Below, piece after piece: positions 12,015 through 20,847 of a stretch of DNA of 28,645 nucleotides. The position numbers and the translations under genes were made by a program. The notes under the pieces were generated by a model. The model was given only the letters and a program-made list of their open reading frames with translations, was not told the origin of the DNA and made no database searches. Positions within the stretch are counted from its first letter, which is position 1; each line of letters opens with the position of its first letter. The stretch is taken from IMG/VR virus record IMGVR_UViG_3300032304_000166, positions 1-28,645 of that record; one strand, written 5' to 3'. Source of the DNA: a virus.

Positions 12015-14144
12015 ATGACCACAGCGGTCACCCAGACCACTAATTTTGTCCCTGTGCAGGGCGTTTTTGCGCCCGAGCCTACCTTTGCCCTTCAGTACTT
12101 TGTTGGCCCTGCTGGAACGCCTTTTTATGGCCCAGAAAACGCCTCATTCACAAACATCAGCACGGTAACTGGCACGATCACCACAACCCCAACTAGCGCC
12201 ACAGACATTGCCAACAAGGGCTATGTGGATTCGGTGGCGCAGGGTTTGGATGTAAAAGCATCCTGTGTTTATTCGACCACCAACAACATTACGCTGTCTG
12301 GCTTGGCGGTACAGGCAGGAGGCGATTGGGTTGCAACGCTGACCGCTGGGGATAGGATTTTGGTCAAGAATCAGACTCTGAGCCAGTTCAACGGCATTTA
12401 TGTGGCGGCATCTGGTGCTTGGGCGCGATCTGCTGACATGAATACATGGGCAGAAGTGCCATCAGCGTTCACCTTTATTGAATCTGGCACAACTTTGGCT
12501 GATACGGGGTGGGTGTGTACTTCAAACCAAGGCGGCACAATTGATGTGACCGCAATCACTTGGTCACAGTTTTCTGGGGCTGGGTCTTACTTGGCGGGTA
12601 CAGGACTAACCCTGACAGGCAACACATTCAGCATCACCAACACAGCGGTGACTGCGGCGGCATACGGGTCGGCCTCCCAGGTGGCGACTTTCACGGTCAA
12701 TGCTCAAGGCCAAATTACCTTGGCGGCAAACGCCAGTATTGCTATTGCGGCATCACAGATAACCAGCGGCACGATTGACAGCGCCAGATTGTCGGGCAGT
12801 TATTCGGGCATAACTGGTTTGGGAACGCTGGGCGACTTGACGGTTACCAACACCATCACGGGTTCGGTATCAGGCAACGCTGGCACGGCTACAACGGCAA
12901 CCAAGGCCACAAACATTGCGGGTGGTGCGGCTGGTTCATTGCCATACCAAACAGCGGCAGATGTAACGGCATTTTTGGCGGCTGGTTCTAACGGTCAGGT
13001 TTTAACATTGGCAAGCGGCATTCCTTCATGGACAAATGCCGCAACAGGGACTGTTTCATCAGTTAGCGGGACAGGCACGGTCTCAGGCATTAGTTTGTCG
13101 GGCACTGTGACCACCACGGGCAATTTGACGTTGGGCGGCACATTAGATTTGTCTGCGCCCCCTGCAATTGGCGGGACAACTGCCAACACAGTCAGAGGCA
13201 CAACAATCACGGCAACGACTAAGTTTGTTGGGCCATTTTTTGAGGCTGCAACAAGTGCGGGTGGTGCTTTGCGTAATTCGGGCGGTACAAATCAATTGTC
13301 TTGGGGCGCTGGTGGTGGTGACAACCTAACATTAAGTGTTTCTACCAATATCAATGGTGCAAATGCACAGATTGACATTAGCCCAACGGGTACGGGTCAT
13401 GTTCACATGAAGCCAACGGGTACAGGTGCGATTGAGATTGCCCCGACAAACCTTGGCACGATTAACAATATGTCGATTGGTGCAACCACAGCATCAACGG
13501 GAAAATTCACAACAATAGATTTCAGCAGCACTTTGGCTGTGTCGGGTGCAACGGGTTCAGCGGGGCAAGTTCTGACTTCTAATGGCGCAAGCGCCCCCAC
13601 ATGGACAACCCCCACCGCTTATGCCACGGTCACAGATGACACCACCACCAATGCGGTGCGTTATCCCTTGTTTGCTGACCAGACAACGGGTAATTTAGCC
13701 ACCACTTTGGTTAGTTCCACAAAGTACAACTTTAACCCCAGCACGGGATTGTTGACCGCCACAGCGTTTAGCGGGTCAGGGGCAAGCCTTACGAGCCTGC
13801 CTGCGGGTCAGCTATCAGGAACGATTCCAAGCGGTGTATTGGGTAATTCAAGCCTTTACATTGGCACAACCTCAATTCCTTTGAATCGGGCTAGTAGCGC
13901 CCAATCATTAACAGGCGTAAACATTGATGGGTCGGCAGGGTCGGCAACCACAGCGGGAACCGCAACAAACGCAACTAATGTGGCGATAACTGATGACACC
14001 ACCACAGCGGCAGAAATGTACCTATCCTGGGTGACCACAACCACAGGAAATTTGCCAATCAAGGTATCATCTACTAAACTCAAATTTAATCCATCCACGG
14101 GCGTTTTAACTGCCACGGGCGGGGTCACAGGGGGCACATTCTGA
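12015..14144 (+). CDS. Long tail fibre protein
   Basis: This 709-residue protein is low in charge and Gly/Thr/Ser/Ala-rich. Residues about 60-195 form a known fibre module: NKGYVDSVAQGLDVKAS, then AGDRILVKNQTLSQFNGIYV and ADTGWVCTSNQG, ending with FSGAGSYLAGTGLTLTGNTF. The remaining two-thirds is repetitive beta-strand sequence with motifs such as GSAGQVLTSNG and FNPSTGLLTATAFSG, typical of trimeric fibre shafts. It ends TGGVTGGTF. It likely forms a host-recognition fibre. It is the first large gene of the adhesin block and shares one base with the next start. No S74 domain is present, so a separate assembly factor may be needed. Confidence 0.85.
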   Translation: MTTAVTQTTNFVPVQGVFAPEPTFALQYFVGPAGTPFYGPENASFTNISTVTGTITTTPTSATDIANKGYVDSVAQGLDVKASCVYSTTNNITLSGLAVQAGGDWVATLTAGDRILVKNQTLSQFNGIYVAASGAWARSADMNTWAEVPSAFTFIESGTTLADTGWVCTSNQGGTIDVTAITWSQFSGAGSYLAGTGLTLTGNTFSITNTAVTAAAYGSASQVATFTVNAQGQITLAANASIAIAASQITSGTIDSARLSGSYSGITGLGTLGDLTVTNTITGSVSGNAGTATTATKATNIAGGAAGSLPYQTAADVTAFLAAGSNGQVLTLASGIPSWTNAATGTVSSVSGTGTVSGISLSGTVTTTGNLTLGGTLDLSAPPAIGGTTANTVRGTTITATTKFVGPFFEAATSAGGALRNSGGTNQLSWGAGGGDNLTLSVSTNINGANAQIDISPTGTGHVHMKPTGTGAIEIAPTNLGTINNMSIGATTASTGKFTTIDFSSTLAVSGATGSAGQVLTSNGASAPTWTTPTAYATVTDDTTTNAVRYPLFADQTTGNLATTLVSSTKYNFNPSTGLLTATAFSGSGASLTSLPAGQLSGTIPSGVLGNSSLYIGTTSIPLNRASSAQSLTGVNIDGSAGSATTAGTATNATNVAITDDTTTAAEMYLSWVTTTTGNLPIKVSSTKLKFNPSTGVLTATGGVTGGTF
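13635..14141 (+). repeat. Degenerate repeats at the end of the fibre gene
   Basis: A unit of about 47-50 codons occurs twice, starting at 13635 and 13992. Both begin DDTTT and continue to VSSTK, then FNPSTG(L/V)LTAT. Repeats of this kind extend beta-structured fibre shafts or build the tip. Confidence 0.7.
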
Positions 14145-14419
14145 TGTGGAAAATCTTGGAAATCCAAGCCGATGGCGACCTGATCACAGGCGCACGGTAT
14201 TTCTGCGCCAAAAACGGGGTGGAAACTGAGGGCTGGTGGAAGTTTGCCGAGCCTGTGCTTACCGTGCCATTTGCTGATGTGACCGAGGATATTGTGATCG
14301 GCTGGGTGACCGCTGACATTGGCGCACAAGTTGAGGCCCGATTAGACGCGCAAGCTGCGGCAACCCAACGGGTCGTTGTCGCCCCCTGGTTGCCCCAGGT
14401 CTTTACACCAAGCATTTAA
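14144..14419 (+). CDS. Small fibre-associated protein (DUF7936-like)
   Basis: This 91-residue protein has ATG 14144 sharing one base with the fibre stop (TGATG). It begins MWKILEIQADGDLITGARYF and contains PFADVTEDIVIGWVTADIG and a C-terminal helix with VEARLDAQAAATQR. The W.I......G.....V...(W)..........PF..LTE..V..WV...LG...EA.L pattern matches a small domain (DUF7936-like) found beside phage fibre or tail genes. Strict coupling to the fibre gene suggests a fibre chaperone or cap, a role similar to Tfa proteins in other phages, although it is not a Tfa homologue by sequence. Confidence 0.7.
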   Translation: MWKILEIQADGDLITGARYFCAKNGVETEGWWKFAEPVLTVPFADVTEDIVIGWVTADIGAQVEARLDAQAAATQRVVVAPWLPQVFTPSI

Positions 14420-14428
14420 GGATAAAAC

Positions 14429-14926
14429 ATGGCAGTATTTTTATCACCAATAGGCGGGGCAGGGTGGCAGTTTTTCAATAACGATGGCACGGTATTGTCG
14501 GGGGGATTGTTGTATACCTACACAGCGGGAACAACAACGCCACAAGCCAGCTACACCACAAGCACTGGCAATATTGCCCATTCAAATCCAATTGTTTTGA
14601 ATTCTGCTGGGCGTGTACCAACTGGAGAAATTTGGTTAATTGCCACTCCATACAAGTTTTCACTATTTACGGCAGCAAACACACTAATAGCAACTTACGA
14701 TAATATTTCTGGCGTTGGTGCGGCAGAATATCAAGTTCAAAACTTTACTGGCACAGGGTCGCAAACAATATTTACATTAAGTTCGGCATCATTGGGCGAA
14801 AACTTCACATTTGTTTATATCAATGGCGTGTATCAACAGAAGAATACTTATTCTGTTTCTGGTACAACATTGACGTTTTCACAAGCACCGCCTCTTACTT
14901 CATCCATTGAAGTCATGTTCAATTAA
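14429..14926 (+). CDS. Tailspike head-binding-like adaptor protein
   Basis: This 165-residue protein starts at ATG 14429 after AGGATAAAAC. The first 90 residues (GWQFFNNDGTVLSGGLLYTY, TAGTTTPQASYT, HSNPIVLNSAGRVPTGEIWL, YKFSLFTA) match the N-terminal domain that attaches P22-like tailspikes to the virion. The rest (QNFTGTGSQTIFTLSSASLG, FVYINGVYQQKNTY) is a small beta domain common in fibres. There is no enzymatic beta-helix, so it stands alone as an anchor on which other adhesins may dock. It sits between two fibre genes, which supports this. Confidence 0.75.
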   Translation: MAVFLSPIGGAGWQFFNNDGTVLSGGLLYTYTAGTTTPQASYTTSTGNIAHSNPIVLNSAGRVPTGEIWLIATPYKFSLFTAANTLIATYDNISGVGAAEYQVQNFTGTGSQTIFTLSSASLGENFTFVYINGVYQQKNTYSVSGTTLTFSQAPPLTSSIEVMFN

Positions 14927-14934
14927 GGTTAAAC

Positions 14935-16404
14935 ATGGCACAAACTGGCTTTACCCCCATCCAACTGTATTCGTCAAGTACAGCAACAAATGTGCCGTTA
15001 GCGGCAAATCTTGCTACTGGTGAATTGGCAATCAACATTACCGATGGCAAGCTGTTTTACAAAGACAATGCTGCGGCGGTGCAAGTTATTGGATGGAAAA
15101 CCACGCCAACGTCAGCGGGGGGAACGGGGCTAACTTCATATACCGCTGGGGATATGGTGTATTACGCCAGCGGCACGGCATTGTCAAAACTTGCTATTGG
15201 TACAACTGATTATGTGATGACCAGCAGCGGCACAGCCCCACAATGGTCTGCATCATTAAAAGCCAAAGCTGGTGGCACAGGTCAAACATCGTATGCGGTG
15301 GGTGATTTGCTTTATGCGGACACCACTACAACCCTTGCAAAACTTGCGGATGTAGCCACAGGTAATGCGCTTATCTCTGGTGGTGTATCAACTGCGCCAA
15401 GCTGGGGCAAGATTGGTCTAACCACGCACGTTAGCGGCACATTGCCAACGGCAAACGGCGGCACAAACTTAACCTCATTCACTGCAAATGCTTTGGTGTA
15501 TGCGTCAAGTACAAGTGCATTGGCTACGAGCAGTAATTTGACCTGGAATGGAACAACTTTTATTAACGCCGCTGGCCCAATTCAATCTAGTGCTGGTGCT
15601 TATTCATCGTTTTATTGCACAAATCAAGATGGTGCTTATCCTTCCAATTACATAAACACAGCGGGGGGAGATAACCAAATTTCCTTTGCATCTAATTGGT
15701 TTAGCGGTCAAAGAGATTTATCAATAATTAACAGCAATATTGCTGGTAATGGTTTTGGTTTTTACCAAATGACGGGCGCATCTGCTAAAACCCGATTGGC
15801 TTTTACTAACTCAGGAACATTTGAGCCTGGAGTTGATAACACAATGACCCTTGGCAGTGCATCATTTAGATGGACAACTGTTTACGCTACAACTGCCTTA
15901 ATTAACACATCCGATGTAAACGATAAACAGCAAATTAAAAATTTAACAAGTGCAGAAATTGCGGTTGCCAAAAAACTTAAAGATTTGTTTAAGTCTTACA
16001 AATTTAATTCGGCGGTTGCCGAAAAAGGCGATAACGCCCGTATCCACATTGGTTTAATGGCGCAAGATGTACAACAAGCATTTATTGACGAGGGTTTAAA
16101 TCCTAATAGATATGCTTTGTTTTGTTCTGACACATGGCAAGAATACAACGGGCAAGCGGTTTTAGTTGATGCTGAAAATATGTATAGCGTATTAACTGGC
16201 TATGAACTTGATGGGCAAACTTTTACTTTAGATGAAGGCAATGTAGCGCCCGAAAATTCCACTGCAATTTATACAAAAATGCCAACACAAACAGTAACAA
16301 AATTAGGTTTGCGATACACAGAAGTAATGGCGTTTTTGATGGCGGCTGTTGCTCAAGAACTTAATTCCTTAAGTGCCCGAGTTGCGGCACTTGAACTCAA
16401 ATAA
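14935..16404 (+). CDS. Tail fibre with S74 self-cleaving chaperone domain
   Basis: The 489-residue protein has an N-terminal module (LATGELAINITDGKLFYKDN), a set of GGTG repeats, a beta-rich body, and from about 325 a peptidase S74 intramolecular chaperone. Ser326 and Lys331 (TSDVNDKQQIK) fit the S-x4-K dyad that cleaves endosialidase-type fibres; IGLMAQDVQQAF and LRYTEVMAFLMAAVAQEL also match the family. The chaperone trimerises the fibre and then cuts itself off, leaving a mature protein of about 325 residues. The part from 15580 on is visibly richer in A/T than the start, consistent with tip exchange. Confidence 0.9.
   Translation: MAQTGFTPIQLYSSSTATNVPLAANLATGELAINITDGKLFYKDNAAAVQVIGWKTTPTSAGGTGLTSYTAGDMVYYASGTALSKLAIGTTDYVMTSSGTAPQWSASLKAKAGGTGQTSYAVGDLLYADTTTTLAKLADVATGNALISGGVSTAPSWGKIGLTTHVSGTLPTANGGTNLTSFTANALVYASSTSALATSSNLTWNGTTFINAAGPIQSSAGAYSSFYCTNQDGAYPSNYINTAGGDNQISFASNWFSGQRDLSIINSNIAGNGFGFYQMTGASAKTRLAFTNSGTFEPGVDNTMTLGSASFRWTTVYATTALINTSDVNDKQQIKNLTSAEIAVAKKLKDLFKSYKFNSAVAEKGDNARIHIGLMAQDVQQAFIDEGLNPNRYALFCSDTWQEYNGQAVLVDAENMYSVLTGYELDGQTFTLDEGNVAPENSTAIYTKMPTQTVTKLGLRYTEVMAFLMAAVAQELNSLSARVAALELK
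15115..15534 (+). repeat. Three GGTG-type repeats in the S74 fibre
   Basis: Units begin at residues 61, 112 and 174 with AGGTGLTSYTAGDMVYY, AGGTGQTSYAVGDLLYA and NGGTNLTSFTANALVYA. The spacing is about 50-60 residues. This is the common phage fibre shaft repeat. Confidence 0.8.
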
Positions 16405-16413
16405 AGGTTGATC

Positions 16414-18141
16414 ATGGCTTTGACCAAAGTTTCTTATTCAATGATTAGCGGGGCTGTTTTCAATGTTCTTGACTATGGCGCTAAAGGTGATGGGACAACC
16501 AATGACGCGGCAGCAATCCAGGCCGCCATTGACGCTGCTTGCCCATTAGTAGGGTCTGGCGGGTCGGTTGGTGCGGTGTTTTTCCCCACTGGCAATTACC
16601 TATGCAATACAACTTTAAATGCCACGAATAGCCGTGTAAATGGAACAAGACAACGTGATGGTCTTATGCTGTTTGGGGCGGGTGAAGGTTCTGTTATTTT
16701 AGGAAACGCAGGGGCAGGATACGCAATAATTGAAACCACAGGTTCGCAATGGCTAACCATGCGAGATATGCAGTTGACTGCTGGCGCAACTAATCCTGCG
16801 ACTGTTGGCATTTACCAAGGTGTATCCTCAACTTTGCCACAAACTCAAAATCAAAAGTTTGAAAGTTTAACTTTATTTATGGGCGACAATGCCGCAACCA
16901 ATAATAATCAAGGAACAATTGGTATTTGGAATTTTGGCGCAGAAGAAAACACATACGACACTTGTTATGTGCTTGCCAATTTACCTTACGTTTTTACTGC
17001 TTATTCACCTTCTCCTAATCTTGGCCTTTCATACGCGTACAGTTTTCAAACATTAGCCGCAAGCCATAGCTGTGGAGTAAACACTTTAATCGGTGAAAAC
17101 TTTCTTGTAAGCGTAAACCGCAGAAACGCTTGTTTAGTGACAGAAGATGTAAACAGTCTAAATCTAGAAAATGTTTATATGTCTAACACTGGAACTGGCG
17201 GTTCTAATATTGCGGCTTGGAAAGTGTATGGTTCTTGCTCTGGTACAAATGGAAATGGAACTATTGAAGAATATGGAACTGCATTGAGTATTTTTGGAGT
17301 TCTAAGCGCAGCAGAATTAAGATTTACTTTTGGTGCTATGTTCAACACATCTAGCAACAGAATTACTTTGCAATATAGCGGAAACACAAGCCAAGGTTTT
17401 CTCATAAACAGCAATATTTCATTTTACGACAATGTTTCACCTAGTAGGCCGCTAGTCGGATTGCCAGCGGGTCAGCCAGCAACGCCTGACGCTGTGGTTA
17501 CTTGTTATATTTCAAACACAACGTTTAAAACCAACGCCAATGTTGCAAGCACGGATTATTTGGCTATTCAAGAAAACATTAAATGGAATCCAAACACGGG
17601 TAACGTTGATTTATTTGGTTTTTATAACGGCAAGGCGTATAGATACCAAATAAACTATCAGAGGGATATTATTGATATACCCCCGATCACTTGCTTGATA
17701 AATGCTGGAATAACTTCAGCGCAAATTTGTAGGGTTAAGATGCCTACTGTTTACGGCAGTAACAATGCAACTGCGGTATCAGTAAGGGTCAGAGGCACTT
17801 TGTCCATTGTTGGTTCGGGGACAAATTCAATGTCAACGAAATACATTGATGCACAAATATCAATGTCTAGTGAGTATTCCACGGGTGTGGTTTATTTTGG
17901 CGCGGGAAGCACGACAGGAACAGCCGATCAGTTGGTTTCTGCAACAACTGCTAACGTAAACGCAAGCGGAAACAGCATCACCGCTGGCGCAATTACGACA
18001 ACTGTCACTTCAAACGTGGTTAGCTTAATAATGACCCCAACCAGAACAGGCACTAACAATGAGCCTGTCCAATTTAATGGAACTGCTGAAATGATATGGG
18101 CTGGTAACGTTGCTAGAGCGCCATCTTTATTGGTAGGATAA
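16414..18141 (+). CDS. Tailspike with pectate-lyase-like beta-helix
   Basis: ATG 16414 with AAAGG six bases upstream gives 575 residues; a TTG at 16408 is less likely. The N-terminus NVLDYGAKGDGTTNDAAAIQ, followed by FFPTGNYLCNTTL, is the start of the Pectate_lyase_3 right-handed beta-helix found in capsule-degrading tailspikes. The middle is Asn/Ser/Thr-rich with many short strands; the C-terminal 140 residues look like a separate beta domain. There is no head-binding domain of its own, so it must attach through another protein, for example the adaptor at 14429. Catalytic residues cannot be assigned. The gene is A/T-rich compared with the capsid genes. Confidence 0.85.
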   Translation: MALTKVSYSMISGAVFNVLDYGAKGDGTTNDAAAIQAAIDAACPLVGSGGSVGAVFFPTGNYLCNTTLNATNSRVNGTRQRDGLMLFGAGEGSVILGNAGAGYAIIETTGSQWLTMRDMQLTAGATNPATVGIYQGVSSTLPQTQNQKFESLTLFMGDNAATNNNQGTIGIWNFGAEENTYDTCYVLANLPYVFTAYSPSPNLGLSYAYSFQTLAASHSCGVNTLIGENFLVSVNRRNACLVTEDVNSLNLENVYMSNTGTGGSNIAAWKVYGSCSGTNGNGTIEEYGTALSIFGVLSAAELRFTFGAMFNTSSNRITLQYSGNTSQGFLINSNISFYDNVSPSRPLVGLPAGQPATPDAVVTCYISNTTFKTNANVASTDYLAIQENIKWNPNTGNVDLFGFYNGKAYRYQINYQRDIIDIPPITCLINAGITSAQICRVKMPTVYGSNNATAVSVRVRGTLSIVGSGTNSMSTKYIDAQISMSSEYSTGVVYFGAGSTTGTADQLVSATTANVNASGNSITAGAITTTVTSNVVSLIMTPTRTGTNNEPVQFNGTAEMIWAGNVARAPSLLVG

Positions 18142-18181: not shown

Positions 18182-19369
18182 ATGACCCAGCCGATTGACA
18201 TCATCACCCGAGCCATGAAGGACATTGGCGCTGTCGCCGCTGGTGAAGTGCCAACGGCAGACGAGGCGCAAGATGGTTTGGATATGCTTAACGACATGAT
18301 CGCCCAATGGTCAAATGAAAACATGATGGTTTTCTATCGGTCAGAGATCATTTTCCAGACCACACAAAACCAAGTCCAGTACACCATTGGCCCAAGCGGT
18401 CAGATGGGGGCGGCATTCACAGGGTCAATTTCTGGCACAACCTTGACCGTCCCAGCTAATGCGGTGACCGCTGGTGGCATCAACATCGGTCAGACGCTAT
18501 CAGGCACAAGCATCACAGCGGGAACAAGGATTGTGGGCTTTACAACGGGCGCTGGCGGCAATGTAAACGAGGGCGGGACATATACCTTGTCTAGCAGTAA
18601 TACCACGCCCACGCCAGCTTTCACGGGGTCTATCAGCGGCACAACTTTAACTGTTAGCGCCATTTCTGCTGGTTATTTGGGCGTTGGTTCTGTGATTGCT
18701 GGAAGCGGTGTCACCGTTGGCACTACGATCACAGCGTTTGTGAGTGGTCTTGGCGGGGTTGGAACTTATACCGTTTCGGTTTCCCAAACCGTTGGCAGCG
18801 TTGCCATGACGGGAACCATTATTCCTTTTCCAATCACGGCCTACTATGAGCGCCCATTGTCAATTGAATCTGGCTTTGTGCGGGTTTCTACTCAACAGGG
18901 CGGGACAAACATTGCTGGGGGTTATCTAGACTATCCCCTGTCAATTCTGAGCCTTGAAGAATACGAATCCATCGGCATCAAGCAATTGAACGGCCCTTGG
19001 GCAAAAGCTATCTATTACCAGCCCTCCGAATTGCTGGGCACAATCTATGTGTACCCCAACCCGTCCCAGGGTGAATTGCACCTTTTCACTCAGACAATCT
19101 TTCGAGAGTTTTCCACGTTGAACGACACCATTCAACTGCCCCAAGGCTACAACATGGCTTTGCGGTGGTGCTTGGCTGAACGTTTGCTGCCCATGTTTGG
19201 CAAGGTCAATCAGGTACAGATTGCCATGATCAACGCCTATGCAGGGCAAGGCAAAGCCACGGTTAAGCGCACGAATATGCGCCCAGCCCAGATTTCCCGA
19301 TACCCTGACAGTCTGATGGTTGGCAGGGCTAGAGATGCTGGCTTTATCATGGATGGAGGATTCCGATAA
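18182..19369 (+). CDS. P22 gp4-like tail accessory factor with inserted domain
   Basis: The 395-residue protein starts at ATG 18182 after AAGGACAAGCC. Residues 1-65 ([20 protein letters not shown], then [16 protein letters not shown]) match the helical N-terminus of the P22 gp4 family, which binds the portal ring and begins tail assembly. The C-terminal part (about 215-395) has [20 protein letters not shown] and a helical [15 protein letters not shown], also typical of larger gp4-like proteins. Between them, residues 79-211 are two tandem Gly/Thr-rich beta repeats that do not belong to gp4 (P22 gp4 has 166 residues). The stop overlaps the gp10-like start as TAATG. Confidence 0.85.
18416..18814 (+). 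repeat. Two tandem beta repeats inserted in the gp4-like gene
   Basis: Both units start [13 protein letters not shown] (residues 78-90 and 146-158) and continue with (I/L)..G....G..(I/V)T.GT.I..F..G.GG....GTYT(L/V)S. Each is 65-68 residues. The same kind of unit is found in many phage and bacterial surface proteins. Confidence 0.85.
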
Positions 19370-20847
19370 TGCCTGATTTTGGGTTTGTCGGCACATCCTA
19401 CGTTGCGCCATCTATCTACCAGGGCGACCAAGAATGCATTAATTTCTTTGCTGAGATTGATTCATCTAAGCAACCTGGGGACAGGGGCATTGTGGCGCTA
19501 TACCCCACGCCTGGACTGACACAAGAAGCACAACTTCTGGCGGCAGAGGTGCGGGGCTTGCACACTATGTCAGGTGGAACCATCCTGATTGCGGTGGCGG
19601 GAAATCTGGTCTATCAGGTCAGCACGGCATTTGTTGCCACCCAGATCGGGACGCTAACCACCAGCACGGGGCAAGTGTCCATATCAGACAACATTGATTT
19701 GGGATATGGATTGACCGCTTACATTGTGGATGGCCCAAATCGATACACCTGGGTGGTGGCGACCAACACATTCACCCAATTGCCGCCAACTGACGGCCCT
19801 TGGCAGGGTGCTTCTGTGGTTGATGTGGTTGACAACTACAACATCTATAACGAGCCAGGAACGCAAAACTGGGCTTGTACTGATCTGGGGTCTAGTCTAT
19901 CCACCCAAGCCCTGTACGGCACGGCTGATGGGTCATCTGACCTGTTGGTGACGCTGATTGTGAACCAGCGACAGGTGTATTTAATTGGGGAAGTGACCAC
20001 CGAGGTCTGGACAGATGTGGGCAACGTAATTGCAGGGATTACCAGTTTCCCATTTCAGCGAGTGCCAGGGACTTCAAGCCAATCAGGTATTGTTGCCAAG
20101 TATTCGCTGGCCCGATTGGGTGAAACGTTTGCTTGTGTGGCAAAAGACAACAGGGGTGCAGCAACCATTGAAAAGATGGAAGGTTACACCTGGGTCAGAA
20201 TCAGCACTCACGCTGTTGAACAGTCTTTGCTGAATTCTGTGGTTTCTGATGCCATTGCCTATACCTACCAGATTGAAGGCCATGAAATGTATGTGGTCAC
20301 CTTTCCCAGCGTTGGGGAATACGGCCTTACTTGGGTTTATGACCTGTCAACCAAAAGCTGGCACAAATGGTTGTCTTGGGACTCCAATCTAGCGGTTTAC
20401 AAGCGCCATCGGTCAAACTGTGCGGCATTCTTTGCCAATAAAAACATCGTTGGTGACTTTGAAAACGGCAAGATTTACAGCTTGGATAACGCTGTATATA
20501 CAGACAACGGCAACACAATCCGCAGACTGCGCCGAGCCATTCACCTGACCCAAGACTTACAACGTCAATACTTTGATTCTTTCCAGATTCAGTTTCAGCC
20601 AGGGGTTGGGTTGAATACGGGTCAAGGCCAAGACCCCCAGGCCATGCTGAGATGGTCAAACGATGGCGGGTCTACTTTTTCAAATGAGCATTGGGTCAGC
20701 ATCGGCAAGATTGGAAACTACGTCAATCGTGCTTTGTGGCGGCGCTTGGGCTGGTCACGGGATAGGATTTTTGAGGTAGTGATTAGCGACCCTGTGAAAA
20801 CGGTCATTGTTTCTGCCGAACTGAAAATGTCTGCTGGGGATAACTGA
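19369..20847 (+). CDS. P22 gp10-like packaged DNA stabilisation protein
   Basis: This 492-residue protein (P22 gp10 has 472) starts [20 protein letters not shown] and has NFFAEIDSS, ALYPTPGLTQ, VRGLHTMSGGTILIAVAGNL, GPWQGASVVDVVDNYNIYNE, and FPFQRVPGTSSQSGIVAKYS. This is the Phage_stabilise pattern: a WD-like beta-propeller hub protein that assembles on gp4 after packaging, closes the portal and forms the attachment site for tailspikes. The C-terminal part contains RWSNDGGSTFSNEHW, also typical. Its position directly after gp4 matches P22 order. Both ends overlap neighbours by one base. Confidence 0.92.
   Translation: MPDFGFVGTSYVAPSIYQGDQECINFFAEIDSSKQPGDRGIVALYPTPGLTQEAQLLAAEVRGLHTMSGGTILIAVAGNLVYQVSTAFVATQIGTLTTSTGQVSISDNIDLGYGLTAYIVDGPNRYTWVVATNTFTQLPPTDGPWQGASVVDVVDNYNIYNEPGTQNWACTDLGSSLSTQALYGTADGSSDLLVTLIVNQRQVYLIGEVTTEVWTDVGNVIAGITSFPFQRVPGTSSQSGIVAKYSLARLGETFACVAKDNRGAATIEKMEGYTWVRISTHAVEQSLLNSVVSDAIAYTYQIEGHEMYVVTFPSVGEYGLTWVYDLSTKSWHKWLSWDSNLAVYKRHRSNCAAFFANKNIVGDFENGKIYSLDNAVYTDNGNTIRRLRRAIHLTQDLQRQYFDSFQIQFQPGVGLNTGQGQDPQAMLRWSNDGGSTFSNEHWVSIGKIGNYVNRALWRRLGWSRDRIFEVVISDPVKTVIVSAELKMSAGDN

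Follow-up and report, generated by a model that had tools for sequence, protein, structure and literature searches.

Copy-variable beta units inserted in the head-to-tail adaptor of a P22-like phage

The adaptor and the nozzle of short-tailed phages are usually viewed as conserved plumbing. The adaptor gene of the virus record analysed here (the window, 28,645 bases in its full length) encodes 395 residues, compared with 166 in P22 gp4, and this raises the question of which residues are additional, where they stand on the virion and what they do. The structural block has the P22-like order terminase, portal (phrog_156), coat, fibres/spikes, adaptor, gp10-type closure/nozzle (phrog_578) and DNA-ejection protein, in which terminase and coat are named from their own sequences and from gene order and not from a profile scan. 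The adaptor gene directly precedes the nozzle gene and its stop overlaps the gp10 start at 19369, as expected of the gp4/gp11 class (Table 1). The genes beside it encode a fibre that has a Peptidase_S74 chaperone at its C-terminus (14935–16404) and a pectate-lyase-like spike (16408–18141), which points to two distinct appendages for host binding or degradation.

Identity and fold of the adaptor

Profiles of three origins identify the protein. It is matched by phrog_637, ‘head-tail adaptor Ad3’ (E 1e-4), and by Pfam SU10_adaptor (E 1.5e-6, above the cut-off), and a profile of the 58-sequence family compared with the PDB finds P22 gp4 (E 2.6e-5) and the Pam1 adaptor (E 0.0036). The alignment with P22 gp4 covers two helical parts, and the beta part is missing from P22. 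The initial annotation, which placed the N- and C-terminal parts in the gp4 family, is borne out by these matches.

An AlphaFold2 (AF2) model, built from an alignment of 50 natural relatives restricted to rows from the window and viral contigs, consists of two helices, a long beta region and two helices (mean pLDDT 78.8, pTM 0.62; mostly 80–94 in the insert). The strands, at residues 51–306, lie between helices 26–43 and 323–338, so that the beta domain stands between helix 2 and helix 3, the layout of the fibre-dock subtype. Among PDB entries, Foldseek ranks podophage adaptors first (E 1.1e-5 to 2e-3), namely those of cyanophage A4, Moo19, B2, KHP30, GP4, N4, SU10 and crAss001; in BFVD, the model matches a ‘tail tubular protein A’ of 231 residues (TMt 0.85).

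The beta part of the T7 and SU10 adaptors is the ‘fibre dock’, absent in P22 and Sf6 (PMC6702177; PMC9509320). With T7 gp11, SU10 gp11 and KP32 TTPA, the window protein shares the succession of helix pair, beta domain, helix pair and C-terminal tail, but a hairpin of its dock domain is enlarged by two additional beta units. With P22 gp4 and Sf6 gp7, it shares the helical parts and the gene order portal, coat, gp4, gp10, whereas P22 gp4 is devoid of the whole beta domain and therefore could not host the insert. P22 gp4 is for the same reason a poor yardstick of size, and the excess over 166 residues is made up of an ordinary dock domain and an insert. Residues 79–212 are the insert, and ~100 further residues belong to the fibre dock; insertion of the whole excess is ruled out. 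In the literature searched, no adaptor carrying such an insert was found.

Table 1. Features of the adaptor gene and of the adjoining nozzle gene in the window
Feature	Coordinates	Strand	Basis
Head-to-tail adaptor gene, gp4/gp11 class, 395 aa	18182..19369	+	ORF call, Pfam/PHROG, P22 gp4 profile match, Foldseek
N-terminal helices, residues 1-48 (model helices 4-15, 26-43); part of portal-binding four-helix bundle	18182..18325	+	AF2 model; phrog_12985, phrog_637; P22 gp4 alignment
First strands of fibre-dock-like beta domain, residues 49-78, ending with invariant YTIGP before the insert	18326..18415	+	Alignment, model
Inserted unit r1, residues 79-145; GGNVNE subtype (adaptor copies only)	18416..18616	+	HMM; subtype count
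Inserted unit r2, residues 147-209; generic subtype; missing in relatives L036, L037 and L044	18620..18808	+	HMM, DNA comparison, subtype count
Return linker and remainder of fibre-dock-like beta domain, residues 210-309; invariant RP at 224-225	18809..19108	+	Pfam, alignment, model
C-terminal helices (323-338, 344-365) and low-confidence tail 366-395 (probable portal-embracing segment)	19148..19366	+	P22 gp4 alignment, model
gp10-like nozzle/head closure Hc3, 492 aa; unit-free in the window; units at ~135-280 in many relatives	19369..20847	+	phrog_578, E 4.7e-102
gp10 hairpin tip, residues 131-134 (NRYTWVV-ATNT-FTQLPP); two units here in relatives	19759..19770	+	Alignment

Copy number and history of the units

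The insert occupies the tip of a beta-hairpin, between the invariant motifs YTIGP and RP, and is made of two units of ~65 residues. The two similar tandem units first noticed in residues 79–211 (here 79–212) are real repeats: r1 and r2 are 49% identical (blastp E 1e-6), and their local alignment score of 147 lies far beyond the 47 ± 7 obtained in 1000 shuffles, with a shuffle maximum of 84. A search with the unit HMM across loci finds 0, 1, 2 or 3 units in adaptor homologues, always at this one site. Homologues without units have ~232–241 residues, and a loop of 5–6 residues joins YTIGP to RP. The region is thus an inserted module in a gp4-type adaptor, as had been proposed, and not a part of one compact fold common to all homologues. 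In Xanthomonas phage PBR31, the insert site of the adaptor is occupied by a divergent stretch that resembles a unit.

Copy number has changed repeatedly. A tree of the adaptor core, from which the units were left out, requires at least four to six such changes, and one two-copy relative (L010) is joined to two one-copy relatives (L036 and L051) on zero-length branches. Between the window and L036/L037, the flanking adaptor DNA has 91–95% identity, and the sequences differ by a net 213 bp, an in-frame length that corresponds to one whole unit. A unit is therefore dispensable, being absent in close relatives among near-identical phages. Simple unequal crossing-over between r1 and r2 is not supported as the source of the one-copy form, because the alignment does not show the end of the single copy as a hybrid of r1 and r2.

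The motif GGNVNE distinguishes the units by position. It is found in 39 of 42 first units of two, in 39 of 56 single units and in all three middle units of three. The 37 second units of two, the 62 units of gp10 and the 26 other viral units all lack it. Judged from this distribution, GGNVNE is probably the mark of a resident adaptor unit, so that one unit would be an old resident, with extra generic units added later, after it in two-copy forms and on both sides of it in three-copy forms.

In composition, the insert is 54.5% Gly/Ser/Thr and 1.5% charged (D/E/K/R). Over 171 pairs, pN/pS is 0.07 for r1 and 0.11 for r2, compared with 0.04–0.06 in the core; the units are thus maintained under purifying selection, neither decaying nor hypervariable. 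A hypervariable receptor-binding part is rejected on these pN/pS values, and also on unit identity, which tracks that of the core.

The junction between gp4 and gp10 is itself a variable place. Ten relatives have an HNH-type ORF exactly between the adaptor and nozzle genes, and in four of these ORFs (L002, L015, L044 and L190) Pfam models for homing-endonuclease zinc-loop/HNH domains match; one further relative has a NUMOD3 ORF there. No HNH-type ORF is seen at this junction in the window. Such ORFs could drive gene conversion that moves units. Fibre-like genes lie between gp4 and gp10 in nine relatives, whereas the fibre genes of the window are upstream of the adaptor; fibre genes thus move around the junction.

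Other carriers of the unit

In many relatives, the nozzle protein gp10 carries two units (up to four) at residues ~135–280, at another hairpin tip. In the window, gp10 has only the plain tip, and the HMM finds no further unit outside the adaptor. Expressed as gp4/gp10 unit counts, the loci, which overlap and hence are not independent, are distributed as 0/0 (29), 1/0 (42), 1/2 (21), 1/4 (1), 2/0 (35), 2/2 (22), 3/0 (1) and 3/2 (2). A model of a unit-bearing gp10 from one relative, L077 (pLDDT 87, pTM 0.86), matches the nozzles of Pan3, P22, Sf6 and Pam1. In this model, each unit begins and ends with a strand of ~20 residues, and the last strand of the first unit turns directly into the first strand of the second; the strand order is the same in the adaptor model. 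With its first and last strands side by side, a unit would be pluggable into hairpin tips and leave the host fold undisturbed, and it is this adjacency of the ends that would make insertion possible in unrelated folds. Beside a three-unit adaptor, the gp10 of L130 (3763–6090 of that locus) has 776 residues, ~280 above normal length, with no recognisable unit, and therefore holds another or a very divergent insert.

The unit is not confined to the connector. Its carriers include the tail sheath (phrog_205), baseplate wedges (phrog_438 and phrog_6), central tail fibre J (phrog_31), fibres and members of phrog_3287, phrog_1876, phrog_3645 and phrog_687, several of which are unnamed structural families. 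Presence on such unrelated virion proteins is the behaviour of a promiscuous accessory domain. In cellular genomes, most classified carriers look prophage-like; one GH5 cellulase protein and one GEVED protein also carry the unit. Contractile tail sheaths with one or two units inside occur at five loci, on Paraburkholderia and Rhizobium genome contigs and on one viral contig, and in several cases the sheath adjoins a phrog_1876 protein that also carries units. Two collagen-repeat proteins of the giant virus Indivirus ILV1 (BFVD A0A1V0SCQ2 and A0A1V0SDM6) align with the adaptor model at 22% identity over >300 columns, so the unit is possibly present on giant-virus surface proteins of this type. 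Structural comparisons also suggest, as a lead only, a unit on a phage HK97 major capsid protein.

Sequence and profile searches of Pfam, NCBIfam and PDB sequences found no family that covers the unit. A tblastn search of phage records with the consensus unit gave no match, for which the low-complexity filter is a possible cause. The insert has no Pfam match to Ig, Big or FN3 families, and the repeat profiles find no Ig family significantly. Antibody matches of the adaptor model in the Foldseek PDB search have probabilities of only ~0.01–0.06. An Ig-like fold is thus without support in Pfam, Foldseek or repeat profiles. Within the part of the literature covered, beyond which earlier descriptions may exist, both the domain family and a copy-variable promiscuous domain on adaptor and nozzle rings appear to be new.

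Exposure and possible roles

In T7, the channel wall is formed by the helix bundle, with the fibre dock outside it (PMC6702177). Twelve inserts would take ~214,000 Å3, compared with ~75,000 Å3 for the channel (40 Å channel, ring height of 60 Å assumed). Situated in the dock, outside the channel-lining bundle, and larger than the channel in volume, the insert should face outward or against its neighbours, and topology makes its exposure on the outside very probable.

In the reading to which slightly more than an even chance is given, the window phage is a freshwater (lake) P22-like short-tailed phage, the 395-residue protein is its dodecameric head-to-tail adaptor, and the units form an accessory adhesion or decoration module that would bind host surface or glycans weakly. 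A hairpin loop of the dock domain carries two copies of a mobile beta domain of ~65 residues, and 12 subunits would display ~24 units as a belt below the capsid, around the connector. The units are gained, lost and exchanged whole and in frame, and are common to nozzle, sheath, baseplate, fibres and further surface proteins in the virions of unrelated phages. This is the behaviour of phage Ig-like domains, which designates accessory adhesion or decoration as the most likely role and makes weak host-surface binding plausible. As the same domain is present on many other surface parts of phages, and in 0–3 copies in relatives, the connector seems to be one more place at which phages attach an exchangeable and probably sticky module to their surface. 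Two properties that set the units apart from a receptor-binding part engaged in an arms race, their near lack of charge and the absence of hypervariability, speak against adhesion, as does the position of the belt, which would sit near the capsid, behind the tail tip and away from first cell contact.

Precedents exist for parts of this reading. The initial annotation took a portal-ring protein doubling as an adhesin platform to be new, yet a tail-ring protein that is also an adhesin has a precedent: TTPA and TTPB of Vibrio phage OWB bind the host protein Vp0980 and mediate adsorption (PMC7241545). There too adaptor and nozzle bind the host surface, as is conjectured for the window phage, but the OWB proteins recognize a specific protein receptor, and the accessible description of them mentions no inserted repeat units. 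Ig-like domains on virions are promiscuous, modular and variably present (Fraser et al. 2006, as summarized in PMC9022992), and weak carbohydrate binding has been proposed for them (PMC9022992; PMC9230969). The unit resembles them in all three properties and in the many classes of virion surface protein that carry it; it differs in matching no Ig family and in its presence on adaptor and nozzle, which are outside the five carrier classes listed in the consulted account (PMC9022992). In contractile sheaths, additional beta domains are attached to a conserved core and point outward from the tube, with adhesion or stability as proposed roles (PMC9230969); the addition to a conserved core is alike, but those domains are mostly Ig-like, while the present unit is common to sheath, adaptor and nozzle. 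Phage structural proteins, those of neck passage structures included, are known to shuffle domains (PMC10684548).

Of the alternatives, all unlikely, the one that survives best is an extended fibre dock, in which the units clamp the N-terminal domain of a tail fibre or spike onto the adaptor–nozzle junction, as the T7/SU10 dock does. The insert lies within the fibre-dock domain, loops of the SU10 dock hold fibres (PMC9509320), several fibre genes are directly upstream in the window (12015–18141), and the T7 fibre sits between the adaptor and nozzle docks (PMC6702177), exactly the two proteins that carry units in relatives. A clamp of this kind is difficult to reconcile with the presence of units on proteins to which no such fibre is attached, sheath and baseplate among them, with copy numbers that differ between near-identical phages, and with Moo19 and B2, whose adaptors have zero-copy size (234 residues) and hold tailspikes.

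Still more doubtful is a cement belt, in which contacts between neighbouring inserts, or of inserts with the capsid, would stabilize the portal vertex. The carriers of the unit are many and unrelated and differ in their neighbours, so one packing interface could not suit them all. Purifying selection would agree with such a role, as would the virion stabilization proposed for additional sheath domains (PMC9230969). Foldseek also matches a 124-residue chain of an entry for Arthrobacter phage Bridgette (71 columns, 31% identity, prob 1.00, E 0.11), a phage with dimeric capsid cement proteins (PMC13033339); this chain is not necessarily a cement protein, and the sequence profile does not support the match.

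Least probable is a tolerated hitch-hiker, without function and spreading by recombination: near-harmless insertion at hairpin tips of two unrelated folds, frequent gain and loss, and homing endonuclease genes that could drive local conversion between gp4 and gp10 in relatives would suit it, but the low pN/pS and the long retention of units by adaptors that diverged deeply speak for a role under selection, even if folding constraint alone could explain part of the low pN/pS.

Beyond the accessory adhesion or decoration role, it is tempting to propose, with somewhat less than an even chance of being right, that the unit family is a second phage-wide ‘sticky module’ system beside Ig-like domains. 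It would be specialized for hairpin tips, with the connector (adaptor and nozzle) among its main sites, and would surround the neck of these short-tailed freshwater phages with an adhesive belt whose 12 to 48 units are tuned by copy number. If adaptor and nozzle carry exchangeable surface modules, host contact, stability or environmental stickiness would be tunable there, and the natural series of 0, 1, 2 and 3 copies offers a ready comparison. The family, named in no curated library searched, would also allow annotation of many ‘hypothetical’ virion proteins. On a 34 kb contig of a Methylococcales MAG (L204), an adaptor with one unit is encoded together with a nozzle that also has units, which hints weakly at freshwater methanotrophs as hosts of some of these phages.
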